This document shows positions 4,044-43,453 of a stretch of 64,000 nt of DNA, in pieces. A program made the translations under genes and the position numbers. Under the pieces are notes generated by a model. That model searched no databases, had not been told where the DNA came from, and worked only from the letters and a program-made list of their open reading frames with translations. Source of the DNA: Acidobacteriaceae bacterium KBS 146 (lineage in GTDB: Bacteria > Acidobacteriota > Terriglobia > Terriglobales > Acidobacteriaceae); assembly GCA_000688615.1 (NCBI GenBank), contig JHVA01000001.1:4509001-4573000 (forward strand), given 5' to 3'. Each line of letters opens with the position of its first letter. The stretch's first letter is position 1.

Positions 4044-4060
4044 AACCGGTTCAAAATCAG

Positions 4061-11422: not shown

Positions 11423-11497
11423 GGGCGCATAACTCAGCGGTAGAGTGCCACCTTCACACGGTGGAAGTCGTAGGTTCGAATCCTGCTGCGCCCACCA
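11423..11497 (+). tRNA. tRNA-Val (anticodon CAC)
   Basis: The 75 bases fold as a full cloverleaf. The acceptor stem is GGGCGCA/TGCGCCC, the D arm ACTC/GAGT, the anticodon stem CCACC/GGTGG around TTCACAC, and the T arm GTAGG-TTCGAAT-CCTGC. The 3' CCA is encoded. The anticodon CAC reads GUG valine codons. Its 3' half is repeated at 29604-29652. Confidence 0.95.
11449..11497 (+). repeat. left copy of the 49-base direct repeat (candidate attL, inside tRNA-Val)
   Basis: Spans the tRNA anticodon arm, T arm and CCA end. It matches 29604-29652 at 48 of 49 positions (G at 11460 against T at 29615). A further shared block TCAACAACTTAG follows a few bases later in both places. Confidence 0.8.
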
Positions 11498-25288: not shown

Positions 25289-26062
25289 ATGCTTGAATTA
25301 CAAAACCTTTCAAGAAGTTTCCGCGGTATTCCTGCTGTTCAGGATGTCAGCTTCACGCTCGCGCCTGGCGAAATCGTGGGGTTTCTTGGACCGAATGGCG
25401 CCGGCAAATCAACTACGGTCAAGATCATTACGGGAATGCTCCGTCCTAACGATGGCAGGGTACTCTTTGAAGGCCAGGATATTCGAAAAGACATGGTCGC
25501 CTTCCGCACGGTCCTTGGCTATGTTCCGGAGGAGGCGCATCTCTATACCTATCTGTCGGGCCTGGAATACCTGCAACTGGTAGGAAGACTTCGTGGCCTC
25601 GGCGAAGTGCTCCTTGAAGCGAAGGCAACTCGTCTGCTCAAACTCCTGCATCTTGAGTCCTGGCAATACTCGCCGATCTCTTCTTATTCAAAAGGGATGC
25701 GCCAGCGCGTATTGATTGCTGCGGCTCTACTGCACAATCCAAAGCTACTGATCTTCGACGAACCGCTCTCCGGGCTGGATGTCGTCTCCGCGCGGCTCTT
25801 CAAGGACCTCCTGGAGCTATTAGCGGCCGAAGGGAAGGCTATTCTCTACATCTCGCACGTGATGGAGATTGTGGAGCAGGTATGTAACCGCGTCGTTGTC
25901 ATCGCGAAAGGCCGGATCGTCGCCGACGCCCGGCCAGACGACCTTGCGAGTTTGATGAAACTTCCGAATCTGGAAAAGGTCTTCGCACAGCTGGTCAAGC
26001 AGCAGGACACCAGGACTGTTGCGCAGGAGATCGTGGAGGTGATGCGGATCAACCATGCCTAA
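25289..26062 (+). CDS. ABC transporter ATP-binding protein
   Basis: Energises the permease encoded next. All nucleotide-binding motifs are present: Walker A GPNGAGKSTT, Q-loop region GYVPEEAHLYTYLSGLEYL, signature YSKGMRQRV, Walker B LLIFDEPLSGLD and switch histidine YISHVME. The sequence resembles ABC-2 type exporters. ATG 25289 (MLELQNLSRSF) with GGAAGAGAG upstream is preferred over TTG 25259. Its stop overlaps the start of the permease gene by 8 bases, so the two are translationally coupled. Confidence 0.93.
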   Translation: MLELQNLSRSFRGIPAVQDVSFTLAPGEIVGFLGPNGAGKSTTVKIITGMLRPNDGRVLFEGQDIRKDMVAFRTVLGYVPEEAHLYTYLSGLEYLQLVGRLRGLGEVLLEAKATRLLKLLHLESWQYSPISSYSKGMRQRVLIAAALLHNPKLLIFDEPLSGLDVVSARLFKDLLELLAAEGKAILYISHVMEIVEQVCNRVVVIAKGRIVADARPDDLASLMKLPNLEKVFAQLVKQQDTRTVAQEIVEVMRINHA

Positions 26063-27887: not shown

Positions 27888-27953
27888 GGCGGTGCCGGGA
27901 AGGCATTTTGTCTTGTGGGCAGAGGTAGGTGAAGTGAAGCCGTTTATCGTTAC

Positions 27954-29156
27954 CTATCTCACATCGCTGGGTGGGCGCTCGGTCCGGAAGACTACGACAC
28001 CGTCCAAGAAAGTTGACCATGCGAGCTTCTGGTACGAATGGTAAAAGAAGGCTCCTGGACGCGTGCCCATAGCCGCGAGCTGCTTTGACCCGACGTAGAG
28101 GGCACCGGCGGGGGTTCCACGCAGAGCCTGCACCTCTATTGAATCTGCGGGCGGAACGGGGATGGCTGGGAACCTACCTTTCCCTTGCCGGAACGAACCG
28201 TCAAGAGCAGAGAAGCCTAGTGAGCTTGCGCGATTTCCGTATTTGCGGGAAATGAAGGAGCCAAGATTGGTTCCTGCACGATCACCCCAAATCGGGTCAC
28301 CTTGCTTCGCGATATGCACGGTTGCTGCCCAGACGATAGTCTTGTGTTTCCTCGGAAGGCGGCTCTCTAGCCAATCAAAAGTCTGGAACATGGAACGGTC
28401 GCGGTTGGCCATGTTTTCGCCATCGGGACTGAAGTCCCGGCTTATCCATCGCTCGGTCGCAGAAATCATCTCCAGCCGGTCTTCTTTCGCTCTACCGTTC
28501 AGGGTTGGATCTGCATGGGCGGCGACGTCCACCTTGGCAAGGCATGTCTCGATCTGAGACTGGTCCAATTTCGAGTAGGGCTTATCTGCCGGATAGTCAT
28601 AGTAAACACGTTGATGAAAAGCAGCCTTGCAACTTTGCTGTTCCGTCAAAGGCAGCGAACTAGTAAATTCCGCGATCATTTCATCGTTGGCGTAGTTTTG
28701 CCCGAGCTGCCCGAGCTGGTCATCGAGACCGCCAATGAAAACCTTTCCAGACCGCGCACGTTCAAGCAGAAAAGGAGCGAGTGGCGTGAATTCACGGTAG
28801 AACTTCCAAAGGCCCCCTACGGCTGTGAGCAGGTCATCTGGGGCCACCGCTTCTCCCCAACTTATCCTTTGGTTCAGATTGATGAATTCATCCTGGTTTG
28901 CCTCAAATAGAACAGCATCAAATCCACACCTATTTACAAGCCGTTCGACAAGCGCAACCTTGAAGGCAAGTGTATGTCCGTCTCCGTGGGTCGCGATCTC
29001 GCCCAGCATGACGACCTGAACCTTGCATAGCCCTCGTGTAGTCGCATCCAATGCCTTCTCATCCTCTCGCGCGGTGGATAGAGTCTGGGTGTAGGCAGGC
29101 AGAACATCAGGAGCGCGACAGCACCGAAGAGCAGGTGAGTGATACGTTTCGAACAC
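27954..29156 (-). CDS. erythromycin-esterase (Ere) family protein, N-terminus probably frameshifted
   Basis: Ere-like hydrolase (PF05139): VVMLGEIATHGDGHTLAFKVALVERLV contains the family Glu and His residues (first block quoted in part), followed by FDAVLFEANQ and, near the end, VWAATVHIAKQG. Relatives hydrolyse macrolide lactones or have unknown substrates. Activity cannot be inferred. In this frame the start is a GTG giving a poor leader. An ATG start at 29173 or 29158 in another frame encodes a good signal peptide (MCSKRITHLLFGAVALLMFCLP) and runs into it at CTGCCTGCCTACA. A one-base shift there would join signal peptide and enzyme. As it stands, export is probably lost. Confidence 0.75.
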   Translation of the reverse strand: MFETYHSPALRCCRAPDVLPAYTQTLSTAREDEKALDATTRGLCKVQVVMLGEIATHGDGHTLAFKVALVERLVNRCGFDAVLFEANQDEFINLNQRISWGEAVAPDDLLTAVGGLWKFYREFTPLAPFLLERARSGKVFIGGLDDQLGQLGQNYANDEMIAEFTSSLPLTEQQSCKAAFHQRVYYDYPADKPYSKLDQSQIETCLAKVDVAAHADPTLNGRAKEDRLEMISATERWISRDFSPDGENMANRDRSMFQTFDWLESRLPRKHKTIVWAATVHIAKQGDPIWGDRAGTNLGSFISRKYGNRASSLGFSALDGSFRQGKGRFPAIPVPPADSIEVQALRGTPAGALYVGSKQLAAMGTRPGAFFYHSYQKLAWSTFLDGVVVFRTERPPSDVR

Positions 29157-29374
29157 ATCGTCATAAGCTCCATGTTAGGTGAGAAGCTTTTGGTCTTCAC
29201 AAGTCAGGCTTGTCGTCAGCAATCCGGCAGGACAGAACGGCCGTCAGGAAGTCTCGTAACAGTCTCGTTCCCCCTTCCTGCACTTTCCCCTTTACTGTCT
29301 GCGGCGCAGGCGACGATAAGAGCGTTTATGAGGCCCCATTTCGTTTCGTGGCACACGCCAGTCATCGATTCGCT

Positions 29375-29581
29375 CTAGGACTCTTTTGCGGCAGCATACG
29401 ATCCCGGAGGTTCACGAAAGGGTTTTACGTCAATGCGCTCGTAACGCACCCCCAGCACCGTCAGACGTTCTTTGCCGCCCGGTGCTTCGAGAACGACGCT
29501 GTCCCCCTCGGCCGACCGCATCAACGCGCGACCCAGAGAACTCACCCAACTGACATGGCCGTCAAATATCTCTAATGCTAT
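29375..29581 (-). pseudogene. GreA/GreB transcript-cleavage factor, C-terminal remnant
   Basis: After a TAA, the minus strand reads DGHVSWVSSLGRALMRSAEGD, then SVVLEAPGGKERLTVLGVRYERI. This is the FKBP-like C-terminal domain of Gre factors (VSPLGRALLGKxEGDxV and APGG..YEILxVxY). The coiled-coil N-terminal domain that inserts into the RNA polymerase secondary channel is missing. The break lies only about 20 bases from the tRNA-derived repeat at 29604, as if the recombination event removed the rest. Confidence 0.75.
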
Positions 29582-29603
29582 TTACAACTTAGCTTGGGAT
29601 CTG

Positions 29604-29652
29604 CACCTTCACACTGTGGAAGTCGTAGGTTCGAATCCTGCTGCGCCCACCA
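29604..29652 (+). repeat. right copy of the 49-base direct repeat (candidate attR)
   Basis: Identical to tRNA-Val bases 11449-11497 except T for G at 29615. Upstream bases do not form a D arm or acceptor strand, so it is not a tRNA gene. It corresponds to the 3' half left at the far end of an island inserted in a tRNA. Confidence 0.8.
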
Positions 29653-29767
29653 TATAATCAACAACTTAGCGACACTGGTGGTGAGAGACTTGATGCCCTC
29701 TGGTGCCAAAGTTTGCCGGCTGGCAGCAACCTGTGCCGGTTAAATCCAGGGAACCTGAAGCTGCGAT

Positions 29768-31843
29768 CTAGCTGGTTGCGAACGAGGGTTCCATCTGCAC
29801 CTGAAGAACCTGTTCTAAATCCCTCCGCACCTCGAGGATCAGGATATCGTCCTCCTGTCCATACTGTTGCGCCTGATCTGCAATCTCTTTAGGACTGGCA
29901 TGTCGATGAAGAAGCGCGTTGGTTCGTTCGAAGCCAAACAGCACCCCTTTTGCGTTCTGAGATTCAACGATTCCGTCTGACATCGCGATCAGCGAGTCGC
30001 TCTGTTTCAGCTCGAACGACATAGTAGATAGTTCCGATTCCGGGACCATCCCGATCGGCAAAGCACCCTCCATCTCGATCTCTTTGCCGTTGAGGTAAGG
30101 AGGAAGATGGCCGGCATTTGCCAGCAGAACTTTGCCATCCGAGCTGATCCGCATGATGAGGCATGTAGCGCTGCCCTGCTGATGATCGCAGAGCTGCTTG
30201 CTGACCTCGCTCAGGATCTCTGCCGGGTCGGAACTATGCTGCGCCGCGGACTGGATGGCCCCGACGATCAACGCAACCAGCATTCCCGCTTGCAGACCCT
30301 TCCCGGTGACATCACCGACCACGACCAGTACGCTGTCTGAAGTCGTGGTTGGCAGAACCTGGAAGAAATCGCCGCCGACCTCACGCATGGGGCGATACTC
30401 GCTCTGGATTACCAATCCGCGAACCTTGGGAACTTTTCTTGGAATCAGTAACTCTTGAATATGACGAGCCTGTTGGATTTCAATCTTCCACTGCTCTTTC
30501 AAACGCTGAGCTATGATGAATCTTCGCAGCAGCATCACGGTGATCACCAGAAGCGAGAGAATGGTCGAGATGGATCCGAGGGAGACACTGAAGTCCATCA
30601 CCGTGAAGATCGTTCTGATGTGAAGCAGACGCAACTCACGCTGATAGTTTGCGACCACTACAAGCAATACCGCGACCGCAGCTATCCATCCTTCCGTGCG
30701 TTGATGAACAAATCCGCGATATGCCACGCCGCAAAGCAACAGACCCAACGCTAGTTTGGTAATCAGTAATACCGGCAGAACCGTACCGGCGAAGTGAGTT
30801 GGGACTAACTGGCCATACAAAGGCGGTCGCAACATCGCCGTTCCTGCCATCAAGATCGCGACGAGGGGCCATACGCACTGATGCAGGCGTTTGATATTCC
30901 ATATCCGGAACCAATAGCCCCAGAACAGTACCCAAAGTCCAATGCGCATCGGCGCCAGGATTATGTCCGCCAGGATGACCCCCAATGTTTGCGGGATGAT
31001 CGGTACGAAGTTGGCGGCAAGTACGATGGAGTTTCCCAACATGGTTGCTAGGCAAGCGAAGGCAAGCCAGAGATACGCCTTATCCTGTCGATCCAGCCAG
31101 AACAGAGCAATCGTCATAACCAGCGCCATGATGAGGATCAGCATCTCGAGAAAGCCTCCCCCCAGGTCGTGCGCGATCTCGTTATAGTCCAATTGGACGA
31201 GTGCACCGATAACGGAGGCGAATCCCAGCACGGGAGGTCCATGAAGGCCTCCAGCATCCGGACTATTGAAGGGAGTAGCGCTATCCATCCAGGTGCGGAT
31301 CGCGATTGTAGCTACTCCATCGCGGATACTCTTTTGTAAGGGGAAAGACAATGGCAGACTGCTATAAGCCGAAACACGATGTTCGGTGAATTTGCCAAAC
31401 TCTCCAATCTGAGTTCCGTTGACGAAGATCTGATACGCATCGTCGACGGCTGCAGGCATCTTGAGTGCAAGTCTGCGGTCTGCACCATTGACCTCCACTT
31501 TCAACCTGTACCAGGCAAAGCCGGTGTAGTTTGGGTAGCCTCGTACCGTCCAGCCAGGAACAAATCCGCTGATTCCCAGGCTCGTATCGACAGTGCCCTC
31601 AGGAGGCGACAGGTCCATCGTGCCCCAGGAAGAATCGTCGTAGTCTGCGCGTCCCCACGCAGGATCATCCCCTGTACGGAACTTCCAGGGACCCGCCAGC
31701 TCTGCCGAAGATTCTCCAAGACTAATTTTTACGACCTGCGGAGAAGCCGGTGTGGTTTTACTAGGAAGGTTTTGAGCGCAGATCGGAACGCATAGGATAG
31801 CGGGTAGAACGCACTGCATGACGGTTCGTGCAATACATGGCAT
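29768..31843 (-). CDS. membrane sensor with PP2C-type (RsbU/SpoIIE) phosphatase domain
   Basis: Probable receptor phosphatase that dephosphorylates an RsbV-type antagonist. In order: a signal peptide (MPCIARTVMQCVLPAILC), an extracytoplasmic galactose-binding-like sandwich at about 40-210 (GPWKFRTGDDPAWGRADYDDSSW, FVNGTQIGEFG), some eight membrane helices at 220-440, a short helical linker, then the SpoIIE domain from about 470. Metal ligands are in REVGGDFFQV, VVVGDVTGKGLQAGM, LANAGHLPPYL and IAMSDGIVES. This resembles 7TMR-DISM receptors. ATG 31843 has AGAGAG upstream. The TTG at 31894 is discounted. Acts on the same pathway type as the rsbU-W-V operon 1.2 kb away. Confidence 0.88.
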   Translation of the reverse strand: MPCIARTVMQCVLPAILCVPICAQNLPSKTTPASPQVVKISLGESSAELAGPWKFRTGDDPAWGRADYDDSSWGTMDLSPPEGTVDTSLGISGFVPGWTVRGYPNYTGFAWYRLKVEVNGADRRLALKMPAAVDDAYQIFVNGTQIGEFGKFTEHRVSAYSSLPLSFPLQKSIRDGVATIAIRTWMDSATPFNSPDAGGLHGPPVLGFASVIGALVQLDYNEIAHDLGGGFLEMLILIMALVMTIALFWLDRQDKAYLWLAFACLATMLGNSIVLAANFVPIIPQTLGVILADIILAPMRIGLWVLFWGYWFRIWNIKRLHQCVWPLVAILMAGTAMLRPPLYGQLVPTHFAGTVLPVLLITKLALGLLLCGVAYRGFVHQRTEGWIAAVAVLLVVVANYQRELRLLHIRTIFTVMDFSVSLGSISTILSLLVITVMLLRRFIIAQRLKEQWKIEIQQARHIQELLIPRKVPKVRGLVIQSEYRPMREVGGDFFQVLPTTTSDSVLVVVGDVTGKGLQAGMLVALIVGAIQSAAQHSSDPAEILSEVSKQLCDHQQGSATCLIMRISSDGKVLLANAGHLPPYLNGKEIEMEGALPIGMVPESELSTMSFELKQSDSLIAMSDGIVESQNAKGVLFGFERTNALLHRHASPKEIADQAQQYGQEDDILILEVRRDLEQVLQVQMEPSFATS

Positions 31844-31981
31844 AGGAGCGCTCTCTGGGATCTCACTTCTCGAATGCTGAACAATATACGACAAGCGGGC
31901 AAGCTATGCTCGTGCTCGGATCCTGAAAGGCTTCTCCCATCGAACACGGTCTGAGATGGCATGTTCGTTCAGAAAAACGAG

Positions 31982-32024
31982 AAGGGAAGAGGCGATCCGT
32001 GTCGGGTCGATCGGCTCTTCCCTT
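31982..32024 (-). terminator. rho-independent terminator of the PEP-CTERM gene
   Basis: A 16-base stem with one mismatch (AAGGGAAGAGGCGATC / GATCGGCTCTTCCCTT), followed on the minus strand by CTCGTTTTT. Confidence 0.85.
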
Positions 32025-32058
32025 TGTCTTTGAAGGTCCTTAAGATGCGGAGCCTGAG

Positions 32059-32643
32059 CTAAGACGTGCGACGTCTGGAGATAGCCGATCCGGCCAATGC
32101 AATCCCAGTGGAGAACAGCCAGAGGGTCTCGGGCTCGGGGACCGCGGAAGTTGTCGTAAAGGATGCGGTGACCTCGGGAAATTCGGAGGGATCTACACCT
32201 TGCTCAGCGATGACGAAGTTCTCATTGTTCGTAAGGAGACCACCGCTGAAGATGAGAGTGTACTGTTGATCGTCGTGAAGGTCACATGCTCCGGGCCCAG
32301 GTTCAGGGAAGATGTCCAGTCCGCCTCCGTCTAAACTGCAGTTTGCCGGAGCAGCATCAGACAGCGCTGTGTTGTTGCTGAAGTTGAGGGTCAGGCTCGT
32401 CCAGTCCTGGCCCGTGCGGTTGACGCCAGAAAAGCAGCCATCGTATGTACCCGCGGTGCCCGTAGGCAGCTGACCGACGGCACAGGGCGCAAAGGTAAAG
32501 CTGAACGGTGAATCGAAGATCGGAAAAGTGGGGAAGCTGGCCGGCGGCGGATCAAGCACAACCATACGGAAATCATCGCCTTTCGCAATTCCCGCTGTGC
32601 CACTGATTAGAACGATGGCAAGCAGATAGCGCAACATTCGCAT
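32059..32643 (-). CDS. PEP-CTERM sorting-signal protein
   Basis: 194 residues. A signal peptide (MRMLRYLLAIVLISGTAGIAKG) precedes a beta-rich Pro/Thr/Ser-rich body with few lysines. The C-terminal tripartite sorting tag is VPEPETLWLFSTGIALAGSA then ISRRRTS: the PEP motif, a hydrophobic segment and a basic tail. Such proteins are processed by an exosortase and sent to the surface or extracellular polymer. No exosortase is in the window. Four cysteines in the body could form disulfides. AAGGAG lies 8 bases before ATG 32643. The body itself matches no family I know. Confidence 0.88.
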   Translation of the reverse strand: MRMLRYLLAIVLISGTAGIAKGDDFRMVVLDPPPASFPTFPIFDSPFSFTFAPCAVGQLPTGTAGTYDGCFSGVNRTGQDWTSLTLNFSNNTALSDAAPANCSLDGGGLDIFPEPGPGACDLHDDQQYTLIFSGGLLTNNENFVIAEQGVDPSEFPEVTASFTTTSAVPEPETLWLFSTGIALAGSAISRRRTS

Positions 32644-33100
32644 CTTGAAGTCTCCTTAAACGAACAGCTCAGATCAGAAACACGCACGTCTGGATCGCAT
32701 ACAGAAGAAGAGCCCGATTGAAAGGATTAGCGTACTAACAGCATGCACGTTGAGTGCCGAAGAGAAAACAATGAATCTGGCCTATTTCCAGTGCTGCTGA
32801 ACGGAAGTATGCATAAAACTGCAGCGGGGGGGAGGAAACGTGTTCACAGCAACTGCAACAGTGCACTTAAGTTTTCGAGTACGAGGAGTTAGATCTCCGC
32901 CTCGGCGGCTTGCGCTGATGCGCATAAATGCAGCACGGATTCCACCTTCGTCACCTCGATCAAAACTCGACGTTGTTCATTTACACCGCAAACATAGTAC
33001 GTCGGAGTGTGTTTGTGGAATGAACTCTGCTTGAGATCGGATGGCTCGATGGGTTCTCAGCTTATACTCGTGCACACATCTTTATCCCAGGGAACCCACG
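32644..33100. other. 457-base divergent intergenic region
   Basis: Between the PEP-CTERM gene (minus) and the GAF-RsbU gene (plus). No coding frame is supported. It should hold both promoters, but no convincing -35/-10 pair or operator was identified by eye. Confidence 0.5.
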
Positions 33101-34267
33101 ATGGAGATAAGTGAAGCGCTTCAGGCTCAGCAGCAGGTAGTTCGTCTGCAGGCACTGTTAGAGGCCAGCCGACAGCTCCACTCGACGATCGAACTCGACC
33201 AGGTTCTTCACATCACTCTCCAGATGGTAGTTCGGGAACTGGAACTGAGTGGAGCGTTCTTCTCCACCTGGCCTCAGACTTATGGCGACGTGCCATCTGC
33301 CCTGCGGGAAGCCGCTGCTTCCGCTGCTCTCGAAGGAGATAGCAATCTATCCGACTCGGTGCTTAGGTTTCCTCTTCGCGACAAATCAGGATTTCCGTTT
33401 ACCGAGTTGATCGTGCTGATCCCCGTTGGTCGCACGCTTGATCTCGACGAAATGGATTTCCTCGAATCCCTGTGTGTCCAGGCAGCCGTGGCAATCGAGA
33501 ACGCACGTTTCCATAGACGTGCTCTTCAGTGGCAACGCGTCGAGAGCGATCTTGCTGCAGCGCGCCAGGTCCAACTTAGCCTCATACCGCAGCAGATGCC
33601 GGTGATTCCCCACTATCAGCTAGCCGCCCGTTCGGTCACTTGTTACGAGGTCGGCGGCGATTATCTCGACATCGTACCGATGCCTTCAGGAGAGGTCATT
33701 GTCGTTGTAGGGGACGTCGCTGGAAAGGGGCTGGCATCGGCTCTTGTCGGAACCTCGTTCCGTTCCGCCTTTCGTGCCATGGTGCATGCCGGTCTCAGCC
33801 TTCAGGAGACTGCTACTCGTATAAACCTGCTTCACCATGGGGAAGGCCCGGAAGCTCAGCGTCGCTATGTGACTGTTATGCTGCTGCGTCTCGATCCGAA
33901 GACGCATACACTTGAGGCGGTAAACGCGGGACACAATCCAGCCTTCCTTATCAAGAGCGACGGAACGGTGCGCAAAATCGCAGCATCGGGCACACCTGTT
34001 GGAATGTTGCCCTTTTCGAGCTATGTATCGGAGGAGTTTCCTTTCAGTCCTGGAACGAGGCTTTTGGTCTACACTGACGGCATGACGGAGGTCTTCTGCG
34101 GAGAGGAGGAGTTTGGAGAAGCTCGACTCCTGCAGACATTTGTTGCCCTCGCCGAAGCTACGGCTGAACGGGCAGTGGGGTTGCTTTGGGAGACTTTAGA
34201 AGCGTTCTCTGATGGACGAGAGCAATCTGATGATATGACCGCACTCGTATTATCCAGAGACCGATAG
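33101..34267 (+). CDS. GAF-domain PP2C (RsbU-type) phosphatase
   Basis: Cytoplasmic serine phosphatase expected to reactivate the RsbV-like protein encoded two genes downstream. A helical N-terminus (ALQAQQQVVRLQALLEASRQ) precedes a GAF-like sensor domain (about 20-145) ending in VQAAVAIENARFHRRA. The SpoIIE catalytic domain follows from about 160: ARQVQLSLIPQQMP, CYEVGGDYLDIV, VVVGDVAGKGLASAL, AVNAGHNPAFL, LVYTDGMTE and SDDMTALVL carry the metal-binding Asp/Gly residues. Start 33101 has AGGGA upstream. ATG 33041 lacks one. The kinase gene follows after 14 bases. Confidence 0.9.
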   Translation: MEISEALQAQQQVVRLQALLEASRQLHSTIELDQVLHITLQMVVRELELSGAFFSTWPQTYGDVPSALREAAASAALEGDSNLSDSVLRFPLRDKSGFPFTELIVLIPVGRTLDLDEMDFLESLCVQAAVAIENARFHRRALQWQRVESDLAAARQVQLSLIPQQMPVIPHYQLAARSVTCYEVGGDYLDIVPMPSGEVIVVVGDVAGKGLASALVGTSFRSAFRAMVHAGLSLQETATRINLLHHGEGPEAQRRYVTVMLLRLDPKTHTLEAVNAGHNPAFLIKSDGTVRKIAASGTPVGMLPFSSYVSEEFPFSPGTRLLVYTDGMTEVFCGEEEFGEARLLQTFVALAEATAERAVGLLWETLEAFSDGREQSDDMTALVLSRDR

Positions 34268-34281
34268 CGGGGTTACACCGG

Positions 34282-34722
34282 ATGGATGAGCATAAGAATA
34301 GTATCGAACTCAGGCTTCCTTCACGACTTGGCTACGAAAAGGTAGCCATGGATACTGCGGCCAGCGTTGCTCGTCTGATGGGCTTTGCCCCCGACCGTAT
34401 TGAGGACCTTAAGACTGCTGTTTCAGAGGCATGCATCAATGCCATGGAGCATGGCAACAATCTCAATGAGATGCTGTCCGTCAGTATCATCCTTTCCATA
34501 GCCGGGGATTCTCTGGAAGTAAAAGTTGTCGATAACGGGGAAGGGCCTAAAGAACACGCTGTCCGCCCTGATATCGATAAGAAGATGCATGAAGAAGAAG
34601 GGGCTCGGGGGATGGGTATGTTTTTGATCGAGTCCCTTGTCGATGAGGTGGAGTGGGTTCGCTCCACTCCTGAGGGAAGCTATGCGCGTATGATCATTCG
34701 GTTGCATCCGGGAAATAACTAG
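34282..34722 (+). CDS. rsbW: RsbW-type serine kinase / anti-sigma (HATPase)
   Basis: Partner-switching kinase that phosphorylates the RsbV-like antagonist or binds its target sigma factor. The 146 residues hold an N box DLKTAVSEACINAMEHGN (Glu and Asn for Mg-ATP), the G1 box VKVVDNGEGP, and the G2 lid ARGMGMFLIESLVDEVEW. It is the middle gene of a tight operon (14 bases after the phosphatase, 23 before the antagonist). No sigma factor is encoded beside it, so the target is elsewhere or is not a sigma factor. Confidence 0.92.
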   Translation: MDEHKNSIELRLPSRLGYEKVAMDTAASVARLMGFAPDRIEDLKTAVSEACINAMEHGNNLNEMLSVSIILSIAGDSLEVKVVDNGEGPKEHAVRPDIDKKMHEEEGARGMGMFLIESLVDEVEWVRSTPEGSYARMIIRLHPGNN

Positions 34723-34745
34723 CCATCCAGCGTGGGAGAAGCAAT

Positions 34746-35108
34746 ATGCAAGAGAAAGTAACGCAAGTGAAGATGGAAGAGGTTAGATGCGGCGAACTCC
34801 CTGTCATGGTATTGCGTTTCGCAGGCGATATAACGAGCGCATCACAAGCCGCAGTTATGGGCACTTATCAGGGAATATCCGACAAGGCGAAGCGTATCGT
34901 TCTCGACTTTTCCGCAGTGGATTATCTGAACTCAAGCGGAATCGCTCTTGTGATTCAGATGCTGATCGCCGCGAACAAGACCGGTCAGGTCATACAGACT
35001 TTTGGACTCAAGCCCCATTTTCAGAAGGTCTTCACCATGGTGGGGATTACGAAATATACGACCATTCATACTGATGAAAAAACAGCCTGCGGTGCTTTCT
35101 CGTCCTGA
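34746..35108 (+). CDS. rsbV: RsbV-type STAS anti-sigma antagonist
   Basis: 120-residue single STAS domain. The core is VLRFAGDITSAS, then KAKRIVLDFSAVDYLNSSGIAL (quoted in part). The Ser-Ser in YLNSSGIAL holds the phosphorylatable serine used in partner switching, and LKPHFQKVFTMVGI is the conserved last helix. Unphosphorylated, it would sequester the RsbW-like kinase. The RsbU-like phosphatase three genes back should supply that form. The gene order U-W-V differs from the Bacillus V-W-sigB order. Confidence 0.92.
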   Translation: MQEKVTQVKMEEVRCGELPVMVLRFAGDITSASQAAVMGTYQGISDKAKRIVLDFSAVDYLNSSGIALVIQMLIAANKTGQVIQTFGLKPHFQKVFTMVGITKYTTIHTDEKTACGAFSS

Positions 35109-35542
35109 TTCCATGTTCGAACCGGGCGGATCCCGATTATGAGGTTCCGACCCGCGACCATCAGACGGATCGCTGCTCACTGCCCAGGCTGCGGCTCGCT
35201 GTGTCCTCTATCGAACAACACAATCAAAAACAAGAACACTACAGATCCGCGGCATGCATCGCCGATCTGCGAGATTAGAGCGCTCAAGGCTCTCTGAATG
35301 GCATCAAGGTTCAGTGGAGTCATGCCTCGCGGTATCAGCAAGCATCCGAAAGATCACGCTCGAAAGCAAAAACTGGCAACCAGTCGATCCATGTTTACTA
35401 ATTGAGCAGATTGAGCGAGTTGAGTGTCAGGTGGTATACGTATTCCCGACAGAACATTCGAAGAAAAGTGGCCGCAAAACTGAGGGGAAGATTCCGTTTC
35501 TTCGAAGCCCGACAGAATTCTTCACTGCAGACCAGGATGTGA
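35109..35542. other. 434-base region without a supported gene
   Basis: Lies between rsbV and the GH54 gene. Its one long frame (35254-35571) overlaps the GH54 start in another frame, has no ribosome site or family signal, and is rejected. The promoter of the GH54 gene presumably lies here. No clear elements were seen. Confidence 0.5.
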
Positions 35543-38500
35543 ATGAAAACGAGAATCGATTTTGTGCTTAGACTCTCACTCGCGCTTATGGTAGTTGGCA
35601 CCACCTTGACGATGGCGCAACCGACTCCTTCTGCGGAACAACGCATTTCTCCACACAGGCCTCAAGGCCCCTGCGACATCTACACGGCCGCCGGTGCCCC
35701 ATGTGTCGCCGCCCATAGCACTACACGCGCGTTATATGCGACCTACAACGGTCCCCTGTACCAGGTTGTGCGCCAATCGGACGGCAAAACCCTGGACATT
35801 GGCGTTGTTCAGGCTAATGCCACGCAAGTTCCGGATGCCGGCGGATACGCGAACGCAGCCGCACAGGATAAGTTCTGCAGCGGCACATATTGCTGGATCA
35901 GCATCATCTACGACCAATCTCCCAAACACAACGACTTGGTTCAGGCTCCGCGTGGCGGATTCAGTGGTCCGGCATTGGGAGGTTTCAACACTCTACCGAT
36001 AGCGGACATGGCCCCGATCACGATCATGGGGCACAAGGTGTACGGCGTGTTCATTGAACCGGGCATGGGACTGCGCCAGAACGATGTGAAAGGCACCGCG
36101 GTCGACGACCAGGCCGAGGGACAGTACTGGGTGGTCAACGGGAAGCATTTCAACGCCGGTTGCTGTTTCGACTATGGCAACGCTGAGATTGACAGTCGCG
36201 ATGACGATAACGGCACCATGGAGACCCTCTACTTCGGTAACGCCACGCCGTGGTACAGCGGGGCCGGTAATGGGCCGTGGATTATGACGGATCAGGAAAA
36301 TAATCTTGTCGGGTGCGTCAATGATGACGGGACCAAAGGCTGTCCCAATTTACCCAGCATCCCCTGGCGCTTTGTAACCGCAATCGGCAAAGGAGAACCA
36401 CACCATTGGACGTCTATGGGTGGTGACGCGCAAAAAGGCGCGCTGTCGGTCATGTTCGATGGGCACCGTGTGAATCCAACCTATGACCCGATGCGCAAGC
36501 AGGGTGCGATTCTGCTGGGCAACGGTGGTGATAACAGTGTCGGTTCGCAAGGAACGTTCTATGAAGGAGCGATGACCGCAGCTAATACGTTCCCATCGAA
36601 CGCTACCGACCAGCTTGTCCAAGCGAATATTGTGGCTGCACGATACGACGTAACTCCACTGAGTTTGGCTCCGGCTGCGGCCGCAGGAACGCATGGAGGC
36701 CCGCAGACGTTCACTCCCGGATCGTCGCGAGAGTTCACCGTGACGTTCACGAATACAACAGGGACTCCTGCAGCGGACGTTACGTTGACCATAGCCGTAC
36801 CCAGCAAACAGTGGACCGCAGTCGTTTCAGGCACTACCCAGACATCGAAGATGTTTGCTCAGCAGGTCGCGCCGGGTGCGAGCGTAAGCGCAACTTTCAA
36901 AGTCACCTCCGCGCCAGCAGCATTCAACGGCGATCTCGTCGGCCATGCATCGTGGACGGATTCGACCAGCGGCAAGAAGCTGGTTGAGACTGCGGTTGAA
37001 AAGATTCGTAACGCCAGCCCAGTCAAAATCAACGAGTTTCGAGTCAATTCGGGCGCTCCCGGCAACCCGACGGATTCATTCATTGAGCTCTACAACGCAG
37101 GTTCTCAAAGCGTCGATCTCTCCAACTGGACATTGACTGCGCACCCAGCCCACCAGGCAATCTTTTCGACGGTAAAGATTCCTGCTGGAACGAAGCTTGC
37201 GACTGGTGGCTTCTACCTGCTCGGCCTCTCCAACTCGGGGCTGGCGATCCCCGCACGCGCAGGTGACAGCATCATCCATGTCAGAAATACCGAGGGAATG
37301 TCAGTCGGCGACACGATCAACATCAGCATTGGTTCCAGTATGGAAACGCGCAAGATCGCAAGCCTCGGCACGCCTGCCAGCAACCATACGACGGTGTGGC
37401 AATCCCTGCCTGAGGAGCTGGTGATCACAGTTCCTGCTGGTTCGACTAATGTGCCTGTTCAGGATACATCTGGGTTTGTTGTTGGCCAGAAGATTGCGCT
37501 TGGCCATGGCACGACCTATCCGGTGATTGCAAATACCGTGGAGCAGTATGAGATCGCGACGGTGACCGCGGTAGGCAAGCGAGGCACACAAGCGTATCTG
37601 GCGATGGAAGCGCCAGCGGGAGCCACCAACCTCAAGGTGACATTCCTCGCAAATGTTTCCACCGGCGACAAGATCAGGCTGGATGTCGACAGCGTTGGTC
37701 ACGGGGTCGAAACCGTAACGGTGGCGCATGTCGGTACGGCAGCGAGTCAGACCAATCTCTCAGCTGCTGCGAGCGTCGGGGCAACCCGGATCAGCGTGCG
37801 GCGGGCGGAGGGTTTCGCCGCAGGTGACAAGATCACGGTTGGCACGCCAGCGAGTCAGGAAGCTGTGACCGTCACCTCAGTGGGTACTCCAGGAGCGGAT
37901 GGTACTCCCATCGAGTTCACGCCCGCCCTTGCCAAACCTCATGTAGTCAGTGAATGGGTGGTATCCCCAGGGACCGGTCTGGATCTGTCTGCTCCCCTAC
38001 GGTTTAATCATGCGGCCAATCTTCCCTTCAGCGATCGGGGGACAGGAATCAGCTTCCAGCCGCCGACTGTGTTTGCCCATTCGAGCAACGAACCAGTCCA
38101 GGCGCTTGGGACAGGCATAACACTCGATAGACCCTTGAGCAAGAACCACGCGATCCACGAGGCCGTACGCGATGCCGCAGTCAAGACCGCGGGATACCAG
38201 GGGATGCCGACGCCCAATCAGTGGTTTGGCGGACCGGAATTGACCACCAAGTCCCCCCAGTTCGGCCGTACTCTCGTCGTCGAAGAAGGCAGCATCGTGC
38301 TCCGTGACCCGTCGGGAGCGGTTGCCGACAGCCTTAATTATGGAGGCCTCGTCGATCCGTGGGCTGCGGAAGGGGATCAAGCTGTCTCAGGAGCCCAGTT
38401 AAGCGGCTGCTACGCCCCGGCACCTGGTTCAGTTTTCAATCCCTGGTCGACAGTTGTGGCGCCTGTTGCCATCAACACGAGCGCAGGCCGGTTCCCCGAC

Positions 38501-39016
38501 GGCGCCGATACCGACAGCAACTGTAGTGACTTTTCAACGCAGGCCGCTGCTTCTTTGTCGGCTACTTCGGCAGCGGGTGCAACGAACATCAAGGTCGCCA
38601 GTACGGAAGGCTTCCGCCCCGGTCAGACAGTCCATGTTGATTCTGGTGCAAATCTTGAAACCGCCGTCATCGCCGCGGTTGGAACAGCAGGCGCCACGAC
38701 AGTACGCACTTCTACTGATGCTGGAGCAACTGTTCTCCCTGCCATGGACGTGACTGGCTTTGGTAAAGGCCAAACGATCACGATCGACGAAGGAGCAAAT
38801 TCTGAAACGGCTGTTGTTTCTTCGATTAGAGCTCGTGGCGCCACCATCACGGTCGTCGCACCCCTCGCTCGTAGTCATGCAGCGGGCGCACAGATCTCAG
38901 GTAGCGGTATCACCCTCACCGCCCCACTGACCCGGGCTCATACCGATGGAGCGCAGGTCTCCGACAACGTTCCAACGCCGGGAGCGGCGAATCGATATAA
39001 CGGTAGAAATCATTGA
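35543..39016 (+). CDS. GH54 alpha-L-arabinofuranosidase fused to NEW3-like, lamin-tail and tandem-repeat domains
   Basis: Secreted (signal peptide about 1-25, ending TMAQ). Residues 42-370 match the GH54 catalytic domain of fungal AbfB: GPCDIYTAAGAPCVAAHSTT, CCFDYGNAE and GGDNSVGSQGTFYEG. By comparison with Aspergillus AkAbfB (Glu221, Asp297), Glu215 would be the nucleophile and Asp330 the acid/base; the vicinal Cys207-Cys208 is also kept. The fungal CBM42 is absent. Instead come a NEW3-like beta domain (about 375-490) and a lamin-tail domain beginning KINEFRVNSGAPGNPTDSFI. The latter is interrupted by repeats and resumes at GSIVLRDPSGAVADSLNYGG (about 920). At least six repeats of about 45 residues (GATNIKVASTEGFRPGQTV type) fill the gap and the C-terminus. 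Releases arabinose from hemicellulose or pectin. Confidence 0.88.
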   Translation: MKTRIDFVLRLSLALMVVGTTLTMAQPTPSAEQRISPHRPQGPCDIYTAAGAPCVAAHSTTRALYATYNGPLYQVVRQSDGKTLDIGVVQANATQVPDAGGYANAAAQDKFCSGTYCWISIIYDQSPKHNDLVQAPRGGFSGPALGGFNTLPIADMAPITIMGHKVYGVFIEPGMGLRQNDVKGTAVDDQAEGQYWVVNGKHFNAGCCFDYGNAEIDSRDDDNGTMETLYFGNATPWYSGAGNGPWIMTDQENNLVGCVNDDGTKGCPNLPSIPWRFVTAIGKGEPHHWTSMGGDAQKGALSVMFDGHRVNPTYDPMRKQGAILLGNGGDNSVGSQGTFYEGAMTAANTFPSNATDQLVQANIVAARYDVTPLSLAPAAAAGTHGGPQTFTPGSSREFTVTFTNTTGTPAADVTLTIAVPSKQWTAVVSGTTQTSKMFAQQVAPGASVSATFKVTSAPAAFNGDLVGHASWTDSTSGKKLVETAVEKIRNASPVKINEFRVNSGAPGNPTDSFIELYNAGSQSVDLSNWTLTAHPAHQAIFSTVKIPAGTKLATGGFYLLGLSNSGLAIPARAGDSIIHVRNTEGMSVGDTINISIGSSMETRKIASLGTPASNHTTVWQSLPEELVITVPAGSTNVPVQDTSGFVVGQKIALGHGTTYPVIANTVEQYEIATVTAVGKRGTQAYLAMEAPAGATNLKVTFLANVSTGDKIRLDVDSVGHGVETVTVAHVGTAASQTNLSAAASVGATRISVRRAEGFAAGDKITVGTPASQEAVTVTSVGTPGADGTPIEFTPALAKPHVVSEWVVSPGTGLDLSAPLRFNHAANLPFSDRGTGISFQPPTVFAHSSNEPVQALGTGITLDRPLSKNHAIHEAVRDAAVKTAGYQGMPTPNQWFGGPELTTKSPQFGRTLVVEEGSIVLRDPSGAVADSLNYGGLVDPWAAEGDQAVSGAQLSGCYAPAPGSVFNPWSTVVAPVAINTSAGRFPDGADTDSNCSDFSTQAAASLSATSAAGATNIKVASTEGFRPGQTVHVDSGANLETAVIAAVGTAGATTVRTSTDAGATVLPAMDVTGFGKGQTITIDEGANSETAVVSSIRARGATITVVAPLARSHAAGAQISGSGITLTAPLTRAHTDGAQVSDNVPTPGAANRYNGRNH

Positions 39017-39248
39017 GCGAAAGGTGTTCTTCGAACTCCACGAATATCCGATGGTGTTTGTCGCTTAAGAGACGCGAAGACCAGAGGAAGGCTGAGTTCA
39101 GCACGCCCTGATTGACATTGGAAGGGTGGAACTCTCGTACGAAGGATGGAGGCGTGAGCGTTATCCCACGGGTACATCGAAGCGGGCCTCTTCCGCGCGA
39201 TCTCAGATAGCCTAGCGAAACAGGGGAGCGAGTATCGCGGTGCGATAC

Positions 39249-41291
39249 TCACTGCATAAAGCGGAACTCGATGCCACCATTGATGTCAGCCGGATGCCAT
39301 CGGGAGAAATAGAGGGCTGTATCTGCACTCGATAAAATGACAGCGTCCGACCCGCGCAGCCGGTCAGCGTAGTTGGCATGAACCGTACTACGCTGCTCCG
39401 GCCCGACGAATCGATACTTCATCACATTTCGCCAGTCGGTCCACGATCTTATCTCGAAGCCTCTCGTTATAAGCTCCAAAGAGGAGCCTGCAAAAACTGA
39501 CGGAAGCTTGCGATGATGTTCAGCAAGAAGTTGCTCGCCGAAGGGCGGGACCGGCTCAAGCGCTTGCGTCACACCGCGCGACACAGAGTTCAGCATAGCT
39601 TCGCGATAATCACGCGTGCGCAGCAATACGGACCACCTCTCTGCCTCTTCGGGCGACAGCCGGGTTCCATCACGAAGAGCAGCTGCCTGGATACTTTCTG
39701 CCGTAAGAAAACCTGTCTCGACGGAGATGGAGCGGTCGATGTAAATGATGTTACCCGGGTACGAATCCAGATACGACTTTCGCACAGGAGTGATGTCTTC
39801 CACGGGAAGTCCTGAGTAGAAGGTCAAAATCAAATGATCATTCGGAGCAGCATAGAGTTTCGTTGTCCGATCCATCGATTTGGACTTGAGGTAGTCCAGC
39901 GCAGCAGCATCCGTCTTCCAGTTACCTGCGGCGAATGTCTCATGAAAATTCGGTTTACGACCCATCGCCATGAAGACCACTAATAGGAGTACGGGAGCGA
40001 GGACGACAGAGTACCGCGGTACGACCGTACGAGTAATGGCCGCCGCCGTGATGGATGCTAATAGAAAAAGCGGCCCCCAGTAACTCAGATTTAGCCGGCC
40101 GCTGTCGAAACTGACTGCCGGTACAAATGCAAGAAATGTCGCGTACCCGCACGCTGCCCAAACACTCAGAAACAGGAGCACGGGAAGGAGCTTTTTAGCA
40201 GAGCCAAGACGGAGTGAAAAACCCGGCTTGATCAGAACCAAACAGACAGTCAGCACTGCGAGCACGACACCGGTTGTTGCAGACGATATTTGAACAGGTG
40301 GGTATCGCAAAAAGTCGCCCGGCAGATTCAACAGCGTCCAAGCTCGCGGAATGCGTTCCTGTTGTCGGTAGAATCCAGTTGCAATGATCCACGGCAGAGT
40401 CCCTGCGGCCACAAGTGCGGCGAAAGTACACAGTTTGCGTACACCATCCAAGTGCCTGTGGACGATCACGGGTGCAGCCAGGAGACATACGAGACCAGCC
40501 GCACTGAAACTCTGAAGGTGGGTGTGAAACAGCAATACAAAGGCGGTCGCCGTGAGGAAAACATGTTTCCACTTGCACTCTTTCACGAGAAGCCACAACG
40601 AAACCGCGCATGCGGTAGTCAGTGCAACTTCGGCCGAGTAATAGCGAGCCTGGCGGGAGATGGCAATGTGATAGGGGTAAACGGACCCTACCAGCAGTCC
40701 TGCCCAGGCCGCGTCAGGTCCAAAGAGAATTCTTCCCCCAGCAAATATCACGGCGAGAAAAAGTACGCCGAAGAGAACCCCAGGCAGACGAGCGGCCCTG
40801 GTACGACGTTTCCGTTCAGTGAGATCATGCTTTACCGCAGGTACCCCATTTGCAGAATCCGGAGTAACTCCTTGAAGGGCAAAGGACCCGGCGATCGCGT
40901 AGAGCGGAAGCCAGCCATGATAAACGGCAAGGTGCTTGTCGGAGTAACTCAGATCCCTAAACTCATACTCCGCATTTCCTGGCCACGGGTGGATCAGCGT
41001 GTTCTCGTAGATCGGAATTCCAAGATAGGTGTCGGTCGGATAGCCGTTTTGGAGAATCGTAAGTGCATTGATGGAAGACTCTGCTTCATCCACCCAAAAT
41101 GGCCGCTCGTCCAGGTAATGCATTCGGATGAGGAATCCCCCAAGCAGTACAAGGATAGCCAGCGATGTTTCGATGATCCGGCTCCGAATTAGAGGATCTT
41201 TCGCCATATCAAAAATCCTTCGGTGGAGCGGAATTACAGTACCGAGTTCCGGCGCGTAGGATTTTTCGGACGGGATGAGGGTGGGACTCAT
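39249..41291 (-). CDS. GT39/ArnT-like polytopic glycosyltransferase
   Basis: About 680 residues with an N-terminal helix (SLAILVLLGGFLIRMHYL) then FWVDEAESS, the acidic loop of GT-C mannosyl/aminoarabinosyl transferases, and about ten further membrane helices up to residue 450. A soluble C-terminal part of about 230 residues follows. It would use a polyprenyl-phosphate sugar and act on the outer face of the inner membrane. The start overlaps the upstream gene's stop (ATGA), which suggests coupling. ATG 41207 (MAKDPLIRS, with AAGGA upstream) is an equally good start. Together with the GT2 gene before it, it makes a lipid-linked sugar pathway: one loads the carrier, the other uses it. Confidence 0.82.
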   Translation of the reverse strand: MSPTLIPSEKSYAPELGTVIPLHRRIFDMAKDPLIRSRIIETSLAILVLLGGFLIRMHYLDERPFWVDEAESSINALTILQNGYPTDTYLGIPIYENTLIHPWPGNAEYEFRDLSYSDKHLAVYHGWLPLYAIAGSFALQGVTPDSANGVPAVKHDLTERKRRTRAARLPGVLFGVLFLAVIFAGGRILFGPDAAWAGLLVGSVYPYHIAISRQARYYSAEVALTTACAVSLWLLVKECKWKHVFLTATAFVLLFHTHLQSFSAAGLVCLLAAPVIVHRHLDGVRKLCTFAALVAAGTLPWIIATGFYRQQERIPRAWTLLNLPGDFLRYPPVQISSATTGVVLAVLTVCLVLIKPGFSLRLGSAKKLLPVLLFLSVWAACGYATFLAFVPAVSFDSGRLNLSYWGPLFLLASITAAAITRTVVPRYSVVLAPVLLLVVFMAMGRKPNFHETFAAGNWKTDAAALDYLKSKSMDRTTKLYAAPNDHLILTFYSGLPVEDITPVRKSYLDSYPGNIIYIDRSISVETGFLTAESIQAAALRDGTRLSPEEAERWSVLLRTRDYREAMLNSVSRGVTQALEPVPPFGEQLLAEHHRKLPSVFAGSSLELITRGFEIRSWTDWRNVMKYRFVGPEQRSTVHANYADRLRGSDAVILSSADTALYFSRWHPADINGGIEFRFMQ

Positions 41292-42079
41292 TTTGGGAAG
41301 CTTCGAAGAAGATACAGAGAGACCCCCAATGTGAGCGCCCCGGTAGTGAGAAGAACGGTTGCCAGTCGGAGGGGACGATACATGAGAGCGGCTTTAGTAA
41401 TGACTCCCAAAAAGCGGAGGCCATCCCTGCCCGCTTTCAACTTGGAATCGCCTACACGCTCGTGGTAGGGCATGTCGATTTCGATAAGCTTAGCTCCGGC
41501 TTTGCGATCGAGCAGGGCGCGTGCGCTCATGGCTGGTGTGAAGTGCAGGCCGTTGGGTAACGGACGTAGCCTGTCATAGGCTTCTCTGCGCACGATGCGC
41601 ATGCCGCTTGCAGTGTCACGGATGCGTCGGCCTGAGAGTAACGTAAGCAGGCCGGCAAATAGGAGGTTACCGGTCTGCCGAAGCAGCGGCATTTGGGTTT
41701 CGGAGTTCAGTCTGCAACCAAGCACAATGTCGGCGTGCTCGTCCCACAATGCACGAGCGAGATTGGTAAAGAAACGCGGATCGCAAGTTCCGTCAGCATC
41801 CAAAAAAGCAAGAAGATCGGCATCCGAACTTTGCCAAGCATGTTGAATGGCAGCGCCATAGCCCCGATTCTTTTCGAAGACGATCAGTTGAATTTTATCG
41901 GTATGCCGGAGGGCAAGTTCGCTTGTCCGATCGGTGGACCCGTCGCTCACGACAGTAATATCCACTTCAGTAATGTGCGAGTTACCGATAATCTCCTTCT
42001 TTGCCGCGAAACAGCGCTGAATGATGTCCTCGATACTCGCTTCTTCGTTGAGTGCTGGAATGGCGATAAGAAGCTTCAT
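41288..42079 (-). CDS. family 2 glycosyltransferase (polyprenyl-phosphate hexose synthase type)
   Basis: 263 residues. The GT-A domain shows LLIAIPALNEEASIEDII, VVSDGSTDRT, KNRGYGAAIQHAW and the metal site FLDADGTCDP. One or two C-terminal hydrophobic segments (LATVLLTTGALTLGVSLYLL) anchor it. This is the DPM1/GtrB-like pattern that makes a lipid-phosphate sugar. ATG 42079 is preceded by GGAAGGGG. The upstream GTG start is discounted. The 4-base overlap with the GT39-like gene implies one transcript. Confidence 0.88.
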   Translation of the reverse strand: MKLLIAIPALNEEASIEDIIQRCFAAKKEIIGNSHITEVDITVVSDGSTDRTSELALRHTDKIQLIVFEKNRGYGAAIQHAWQSSDADLLAFLDADGTCDPRFFTNLARALWDEHADIVLGCRLNSETQMPLLRQTGNLLFAGLLTLLSGRRIRDTASGMRIVRREAYDRLRPLPNGLHFTPAMSARALLDRKAGAKLIEIDMPYHERVGDSKLKAGRDGLRFLGVITKAALMYRPLRLATVLLTTGALTLGVSLYLLRSFPK

Positions 42080-42466
42080 CGCCCCTTCCAGGTGCAAGTA
42101 AGCGACCAAAGTGGGATAGCTTGTGTGTCACGGCGACCAATCATCGTCAATTTGGAGTAACCAGGTATGGTGACCCGATAGCCACTTATGCGGCTCCAGA
42201 TGGAGGAAAGCGAGATAAATTCGGACGCGGGCATACGTAAAGTATGCAAATAAAGGGCAGGACTTGAGCCCCCCTCTTTGCAAACATATGCAAAAAGATG
42301 GAAATCGGATGTCATCGGACTCACGGTTCGCTGATTGACAGACCAGATCTTCCGTAGAGCCTGGTCATTGGCACTCTATTTGCTCTACCTGCCTGCAAAG
42401 ACTGAGCCAGCGTCTTTTGGTGAGTTTTGCAACATCGTATCCCGGCAAAGGCAGACACGAGGTTTC

Positions 42467-43453
42467 ATGAGAGTTCTTTTGGTCGGTGGAGCAGGATACA
42501 TAGGATCTCATGTTGCTCTGCGGCTCAGCGAGCGTGGCCATATCCCGGTGATTTATGACAACTTTAGTACTGGTCATCGAAGATTTGTGGACAGATTTGA
42601 AGTCATTCACGGCGAAATGGCCGACTACGAATGTTTGCGGCACTTCCTCAAGGACATCGACGCTGTAATGCACTTTGCGGCAAAGGCTTGCGTCGGCGAA
42701 TCCGTGTCCATGCCGAGGGAGTACTACGCAACTAACATGACCGACGCGCTCACTTTGCTCAATGCAACAGTCGATGCAGGAATAGGTAAGTTTATCTTTT
42801 CGTCCAGTTGCGCTGTGTACGGTGCTCCGGAACGGCTTCCCATCACGGAAACAACGCCACGATGCCCGCTAAGTGCGTATGGCCATACGAAGGCGGCCTT
42901 CGAAGACGCTTTGAAGAGTTACTCGGCCGCATACGGCCTCAAATTTGTCGCGCTCCGGTACTTCAATGCTGCGGGTGCGGACGAGTCCGGTATGTTAGGG
43001 GAACTGCGATCGACGGAAACCCATCTCATCCCACTTGTCCTGAAGGCCGCTTCAGGACAGTCTGCAGAAGTTAGCATTTTTGGGAATGACTATGAGACTC
43101 CTGACGGAACCTGCATTCGCGACTATATCCACGTCAATGACTTGGCTTCTGCACATGTCAACGCTCTCGATCTGTTGATACACAAAGAGGAATCTGACGT
43201 TTTCAATTTGGGAACGGGCATTGGCTTTTCTGTTTTAGAAGTCATCTCAGCAGCGGAGGAAGTATCCTCTTTACCCGTCCGGCGCCTCGTCCTCCCGAGA
43301 CGACCGGGAGATTCACCGGTTCTTATTTGCGATGGGACGTACGCAAAAAACAGACTCCATTGGTATCCTCAGCGTGGCCTGACCGAGATCCTTAGAACGG
43401 CCTGGAGGTGGCAGATATCCAATACAGCGGTCGAACAGGCCATAGTTTGCTGA
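42467..43453 (+). CDS. galE: UDP-glucose 4-epimerase
   Basis: Interconverts UDP-glucose and UDP-galactose using bound NAD. 328 residues with the Rossmann motif GGAGYIGSH (7-15), VIYDNFSTGHRR, AAKACVGESV, the catalytic set SSSCAVYG and YGHTKAAFE (Tyr-X-X-X-Lys), RYFNAAGAD and DYIHVNDLA. Start 42467 (MRVLLVGG) is the family start. The longer frame from 42335 adds unrelated residues. It is divergent from the glycosyltransferase pair and may supply their nucleotide sugar. YGHTK replaces the more common YGxSK, and the Tyr and Lys are kept. Confidence 0.92.
   Translation: MRVLLVGGAGYIGSHVALRLSERGHIPVIYDNFSTGHRRFVDRFEVIHGEMADYECLRHFLKDIDAVMHFAAKACVGESVSMPREYYATNMTDALTLLNATVDAGIGKFIFSSSCAVYGAPERLPITETTPRCPLSAYGHTKAAFEDALKSYSAAYGLKFVALRYFNAAGADESGMLGELRSTETHLIPLVLKAASGQSAEVSIFGNDYETPDGTCIRDYIHVNDLASAHVNALDLLIHKEESDVFNLGTGIGFSVLEVISAAEEVSSLPVRRLVLPRRPGDSPVLICDGTYAKNRLHWYPQRGLTEILRTAWRWQISNTAVEQAIVC

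Follow-up and report, generated by a model that had tools for sequence, protein, structure and literature searches.

A GH54 protein of Acidobacteriaceae bacterium KBS 146 with a predicted split lamin-tail domain and related repeat units at two sites

How is the long C-terminal part of a bacterial GH54 protein built, and what may it do for the enzyme? This question is raised by an open reading frame (ORF) at positions 35543-39016 on the + strand of a 64,000-nucleotide stretch of Acidobacteriaceae bacterium KBS 146 (contig JHVA01000001.1, positions 4,509,001 to 4,573,000), which is called the window below. The reading frame is real, starts with ATG and encodes 1157 amino acid residues, and it matches only once in the genome of KBS 146, which is 5.0 Mb in size and 99.9% complete. 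An earlier note, made from the sequence of the window alone, had described a GH54 arabinofuranosidase fused to a NEW3-like domain and to a lamin-tail domain (LTD) interrupted by repeats, and had considered this layout unusual. Overall, the description was mostly right, except that one catalytic residue was wrong and that the layout is the common one in close relatives and has in part been reported before. Our results also provide a case in which one immunoglobulin (Ig)-like domain would host related repeat arrays at two sites.

Catalytic domain and active site

The GH54 domain of the earlier note was borne out by Pfam and by sequence and structure matches to AkAbfB, the GH54 enzyme of Aspergillus kawachii (PDB 1wd3, 2d43, and 6sxr-6sxt). 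The features of the N-terminal part are as follows.

35543..35617, +: probable Sec signal peptide, residues 1-25 (translation judged by eye: charged start, hydrophobic core, ...LTMA/Q; no lipobox seen)
35669..36646, +: GH54 catalytic domain, residues 43-368 (Pfam PF09206, E 1.4e-123; PDB chains of AkAbfB; structure comparison)
36161..36166, +: Cys207-Cys208, vicinal pair (aligns to AkAbfB Cys176-Cys177; invariant in 74 rows)
36296..36298, +: Glu252 (aligns to AkAbfB Glu221; identical in 74/74 rows)
36530..36532, +: Asp330 (aligns to AkAbfB Asp297; invariant in 74 rows)

The 74 rows are the window protein and 73 ORFs that span most of it and come from the 80 closest loci. The match to PF09206 reached 412.5 bits vs. 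a cut-off of 25 and covered model positions 1-314 of 315. In a sequence search of the PDB, the entries of AkAbfB alone were significant (E 7e-103 to 8e-102, i.e., about 1e-102), and the fifth row had an E value of 0.32. Comparison of the predicted model with AkAbfB gave Z scores of 18.3-19.6. Moreover, Cys44, 54, 112, and 117 align to Cys21, 31, 81, and 86 of AkAbfB, respectively.

In AkAbfB, we take Glu221 to be the nucleophile and Asp297 to be the acid/base; the title of PDB 6sxr names an E221Q mutant of this enzyme. By alignment, Glu252 and Asp330 are the equivalents of this pair and Cys207-Cys208 are the counterpart of the vicinal disulfide cysteines, the bond itself being putative. The earlier note had listed Glu215, Asp330 and the vicinal cysteines as features kept by the catalytic domain. 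Asp330 and Cys207-Cys208 hold in the alignment with AkAbfB, whereas Glu215 aligns to AkAbfB Glu184 (identical in 66/68 rows of a local alignment) and was rejected as a catalytic residue, the counterpart of AkAbfB Glu221 being Glu252. The active-site assignment of a bacterial GH54 is corrected in this way.

The C-terminal domain of AkAbfB is presumably an arabinose-binding carbohydrate-binding module (CBM) of family CBM42. Different from AkAbfB, the window protein has a NEW3 domain, a split LTD and repeats after GH54. No match to CBM42 (AbfB, PF05270) was found in the 1157-residue protein by a scan to E 10, and the fungal-type layout of GH54 and CBM42 is not the one seen here. A search of 61 related genomes with PF05270 gave no match anywhere, its controls included, and demonstrates no absence.

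The lamin-tail domain and its insertions

The features downstream of the catalytic domain are listed below.

36656..37012, +: NEW3/Ig-like domain, residues 372-490 (Pfam NPCBM_assoc at 391-464; Ig-domain structure matches)
37013..37240, +: LTD first half, residues 491-566 (Pfam LTD; match to lamin 1ifr)
37241..38200, +: insertion 1 in the LTD core, residues 567-886, made of profile-homologous units with borders set by eye, R1 567-627, R2 628-688, R3 689-741, R4 742-808, and GTGI...H hairpins 809-886
38201..38344, +: LTD second half, residues 887-934 (splice test, reaching Pfam LTD position 108/109 at residue 934; structure)
38345..38548, +: C-terminal LTD extension, residues 935-1002 (Cys956 and Cys994 invariant; parts of the model of low confidence)
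38549..38962, +: insertion 2, residues 1003-1140, with units R5 1003-1056 and R6 1057-1140 (relatives without it; match to R1-R4)
38963..39013, +: LTD tail with PTPGAxN motif, residues 1141-1157 (directly adjoins the extension in three relatives, L037, L100, and L093)

The NEW3-like domain that the earlier note had placed after GH54 was confirmed. Its match to NPCBM_assoc/NEW3 (PF10633) reached 26.2 bits, just above the cut-off of 24.4, and in a model of the C-terminal part this region resembles the Ig domains of transglutaminases and of 9fyn, with Z scores of about 11.

The Pfam LTD model (PF00932) matched residues 491-564 with 45.3 bits vs. a cut-off of 34.3, but only over positions 5-71 of 109. 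When residues 486-567 were joined to residues 887-1003, the match extended to positions 5-108 and ended at residue 934. The scores of two versions of this splice were 52.5 and 53.2 bits vs. 45.2 bits over positions 5-74 for one control whose second part was shuffled; the second part alone had no match to Pfam LTD. An AlphaFold2 model of residues 372-1157, built with the 74 rows, had a mean predicted local distance difference test (pLDDT) score of 83.1, and that of the full-length protein had a mean of 73.3, much of its GH54 part being poor. Adding 371 to the numbering of the 372-1157 model gives that of the protein. With VIA-align 2, which re-aligns the candidates of Foldseek, the tail domain of lamin A/C (1ifr) was superposed on model residues 120-563 (protein 491-934) with a Z score of 11.0 and a root-mean-square deviation (rmsd) of 2.3 over 104 of 113 residues, in agreement with the lamin-tail fold that the earlier note had proposed. 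This match was repeated on the full-length model with a Z score of 10.6. The Z scores for the tail domains of lamin A/C and B1 (1ifr, 3gef, and 3umn) ranged from 10.7 to 11.1 over 104-112 residues with rmsd of 2.3-2.7. The lamin tail domains are, however, uninterrupted and only 12-17% identical to the LTD of the window protein, and a function in the nuclear lamina is not implied. Structurally, the C-terminal part was matched best by BT_1938, a DUF4876 protein (4q1z), with a Z score of 13.3 over 167 residues (model 21-778); its chain has 389 residues vs. 786 in the model and thus leaves no room for inserts.

From the model and the splice test, it is well supported that residues 491-566 and 887-934 would form one LTD that is interrupted by residues 567-886. 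The split proposed in the earlier note therefore stands, but insertion 1, with its four units and hairpins, has a length of about 320 rather than about 350 residues, and there is a second insertion of about 138 residues in the C-terminal extension, outside the Pfam core. Insertion 2 is naturally missing from three closed ORFs (L037, L100, and L093), in which the extension runs into (T)PGAPN, and has only one unit in L091. Another relative, L058, also lacks its units, but is cut by a contig end and was not counted. In addition, R4 is shrunk to at most 10 residues in 8 of the 74 rows and to 20-23 residues in 2 more. As judged from these alignments, relatives differ by the presence or absence of whole units, i.e., the arrays are modular.

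The six units are related to each other. All 15 pairs of R1-R6 were homologous in profile comparisons at pairwise E values of 8.3e-6 or better, and the R5-R6 stretch matched R3-R4 at 2.5e-10 and R1-R2 at 1.2e-6. No direct repeats of at least 30 bases were reported in the DNA at 37000-39013; the repetition is at the protein level. The nested double insertion is the new detail. Section 5 of PMC8155123 makes no mention of a split LTD, of two insertion sites or of homology among the units. No report of a domain insertion in a lamin tail domain was found in a search of one open-paper collection.

Function of the protein and of its repeats

Taken as a whole, the following explanation is likely. The protein would be secreted by this Acidobacteriaceae bacterium and act as a retaining GH54 alpha-L-arabinofuranosidase, both activity and secretion being predicted from the family and the mapped residues. 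Its catalytic domain, with Glu252 as nucleophile, Asp330 as acid/base and the Cys207-Cys208 pair, would act outside the inner membrane and cleave terminal arabinofuranose off plant polysaccharides. The NEW3 Ig-like domain would link GH54 to the Ig-like LTD, according to the predicted fold, and the LTD would be a scaffold whose two sites host homologous beta-repeats, four units and hairpins within the fold and two units in the C-terminal extension. The repeats most likely would form a protruding stalk or an adhesive module by which the enzyme is held close to its substrate or to the cell surface. The secreted arabinofuranosidase, predicted from family membership, is the firm part of this reading. 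For the repeats, we slightly prefer a role as stalk or adhesin to one as a pure spacer or as a classical CBM.

Several observations weigh against this explanation. Residues 169-229 of GH54 all have pLDDT values below 50 in the full-length model, so that the catalytic geometry rests on sequence. The gain in the spliced LTD score was modest, 7-8 bits with one control. The top 50 of Foldseek itself contained 4q1z but neither a lamin nor 9n71/7w1c, which come from the second look by VIA-align. The content of W, Y, and F was 1.2-6.6% in the repeat units vs. 9.8% in GH54, and such aromatic-poor repeats may be spacers only. Nearly invariant columns made up only 1-10% of R1, R4, R5, and R6. Finally, the relatives without R4 or insertion 2 show that those units are dispensable.

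Some of these observations bear on other explanations. The repeats and LTD could be inert spacers or stabilizers, i.e., secreted beta-domains that lengthen and stabilize the protein but bind nothing, a possibility to which we give some weight, although we think it probably wrong. The absence of R4, or of R5-R6, from several relatives that are otherwise intact, the lower conservation of R1, R4, R5, and R6 and the likeness of R4 to a structural phage tail domain would fit with it. In R2, R3 and the hairpins, however, 15-22% of the columns are nearly invariant, which is about the same as in the LTD halves (16%). This conservation would suit a new array of CBMs that takes the place of CBM42 of fungal GH54 and has arabinan or another plant polymer as its ligand, and so would the absence of a Pfam CBM42 match here, given that CBM42 occurs in all fungal GH54 members analyzed in PMC8155123. 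The match of the repeat profile to a protein with G8 and CEMIP and the resemblance of R4 to a domain of a capsule lyase also point to binding. Such an array is nevertheless unlikely, as the repeats are poorer in aromatic residues than GH54, which would not favor a classical aromatic-platform binding site, and the only named matches of the repeats are a marginal one to FliMN_C and one to RseC_MucC below cut-off, with no CBM model among them.

Bacterial LTDs occur on secreted proteins. The LTD could accordingly anchor the enzyme to the cell surface or the outer membrane, and an LTD protein of the same genome (L105) begins with a signal-like sequence as judged by eye. Neither a sorting signal nor a lipobox or a transmembrane tail, however, was seen by eye in the 1157-residue translation, and we consider an LTD anchor quite unlikely. 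A further reading, which we consider unlikely, is that the LTD is a docking frame for homologous beta-repeats at two sites and the repeat an unnamed glycan- or surface-binding module that phage tail proteins and G8/CEMIP proteins have in common with secreted enzymes of acidobacteria. Natural variants without R4 or without the second array make the role of the repeats testable.

The fold and occurrence of the units also bear on the stalk or adhesin. R4 was superposed on part of the tail tube of phage Mystique (9n71) with a Z score of 11.8 and an rmsd of 1.5 over 72 residues at 29% identity, and on part of the Klebsiella K1 capsule lyase (7w1c/7w1d) with a Z score of 10.8. These beta-domains are like R4 in fold, but are single domains in other proteins. 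In the PDB, the best E value of the unit profile was 0.31 and that of 9n71 was 0.72, which is not significant; sequence searches with R4 or R5-R6 gave nothing significant either. Thus, kinship of R4 with the domains of 9n71 and K1 lyase is suggested by the modeled fold, but not shown by sequence. The whole protein matched 0 families of PHROGs, tblastn with residues 689-1120 found no match in phage records, and none of 137 pattern matches to R5-R6 in IMG/VR was a relative. The fold search of BFVD returned phage proteins, several of which were named tail or structural proteins, with TM-scores of 0.04-0.36 and rmsd of at least 19; neither these nor the large-rmsd structure rows 8vjh and 8rk3 were used as evidence. 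In NCBIfam, only one repeat model was found, below its cut-off. The match to FliMN_C (PF01052) at residues 736-790 (37748-37912), the R4 stretch, was marginal (24.0 vs. a cut-off of 23.8), and the context of an enzyme speaks against membership; it probably reflects a shared small beta-barrel shape. That of RseC_MucC was one of a total of two Pfam rows under their cut-offs in the protein.

In the genome of KBS 146, all six significant matches to the repeat profile fall inside this gene, and other proteins showed no clear match (next best E 0.02). The profile matched 19 of the 61 related genomes, 14 through a gene of the GH54-LTD type, one (G021) through a broken remnant and four (G028, G040, G044, and G054) through other proteins only. 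The other carriers include L161 and five proteins that were scanned with Pfam, namely one with G8 and CEMIP (L160), two with Phage-tail_3 (L163 and L164), one with an N_methyl pilin-type motif (L165) and one without a Pfam domain (L162). The remnant (L166, G021:C7:599500-608000, positions 1847-5192) is a broken copy of the repeats and LTD end in two frames, and adjoins an ORF with a Fic-like motif recognized by eye. The GH54 profile had no match in G021.

Relatives and genomic neighborhood

When species genomes of GTDB were scanned with the catalytic domain, 545 stretches matched the pattern, of which the best 80 were kept. The closest named relatives among these 80 were Edaphobacter modestus, Acidobacteriaceae bacterium KBS 89, Acidobacterium sp. 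S8, and Granulicella sp. dw_53, with identities of 93-95% over the catalytic part. Relatives of the GH54 catalytic domain are encoded by 532 of the 545 stretches. In a scan of residues 376-620, NEW3 (at E up to 0.01) and LTD were matched in 74/74 rows, which is the conservation of the layout in the near group and not its share of all GH54. A unique or chance layout was rejected on these counts. Thus, NEW3, LTD and repeats are the usual layout in close, mainly acidobacterial relatives and no oddity.

Part of this is known from the literature. In 2021, the GH54 group "Bacterium I" of Acidobacteria, Verrucomicrobia, Proteobacteria, and Actinobacteria was described, with sequences carrying ArabFuran-catal, RICIN, LTD, NPCBM_assoc, and RPT1 (PMC8155123, section 5). 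Similar to that group, the window protein combines the catalytic domain with LTD, NPCBM_assoc and repeats, but has no Pfam match to RICIN. According to this section, bacterial GH54 and the combination with LTD, NEW3 and repeats are already known; the domains read in the earlier note were right, and their combination is not rare. In addition, GH54 is listed for Granulicella sp. 5B5 in a passage of PMC7315648, and strain WH15 is without GH54 in a passage of PMC7074687.

GH54 was found in 21 of the 61 genomes, the own one included, by whole-genome search. Among 395 genomes of the phylum with at least 90% completeness, again including the own one, 15 had GH54, 14 of which belong to the window's own family; one of the 15 matches is below the cut-off and has an internal stop. 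The phylum also has short GH54 ORFs of 344-396 residues (L017-L019) and GH54 domains that are fused, according to Pfam, to BNR_2, GDPD and Big_3_5, or 3keto-disac_hyd domains (L167, L168, and L172). In a tree of 82 rows, a supported branch (100/99) separated these six otherwise built GH54s from 76 rows, namely the 74 aligned rows, L171 (LTD by Pfam) and L170 (repeats found). The latter two are deeper rows and also bear repeat units. By their labels, 63 of the 76 belong to Acidobacteriota, 6 to Pseudomonadota, 2 to Planctomycetota and 1 to Verrucomicrobiota, and 4 are unlabeled. The tree came with warnings (long branches meeting, bootstrap unsettled) and many rows are metagenome-assembled genomes, so that transfer between phyla is not shown. 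Two repeat-bearing GH54 genes stand side by side in L056, L079, and L170, whose second copies group with L171 on a deep branch; in L056 and L079, R3 and R4 of the second copy are short.

The ten neighbors at 26055-43450 were also inspected by Pfam. Two of them had no match, and the others include genes for SpoIIE (two), HATPase_c_2, STAS, erythromycin esterase, PEP-CTERM, glycosyltransferase family 2, and an epimerase. None was named a glycoside hydrolase above cut-off, and a hydrolase operon was rejected. Nine neighbor genes were compared with the ORFs at 104 loci (L001-L104), two of which, L001 and L009, represent the window itself; the flanks were 6 kb at most and often shorter. Outside the locus of the window, matches were obtained for the epimerase alone, in L035 and L074. 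Almost no neighbors are shared around the relatives, and the gene neighborhood is of no help on function. Directly upstream of the enzyme gene, the SpoIIE, HATPase_c_2, and STAS genes are consecutive at 33041-35105 and look like a partner-switching regulatory module. Finally, a single match at gathering score was obtained with Rfam in the window, a tRNA gene at 11423-11494.

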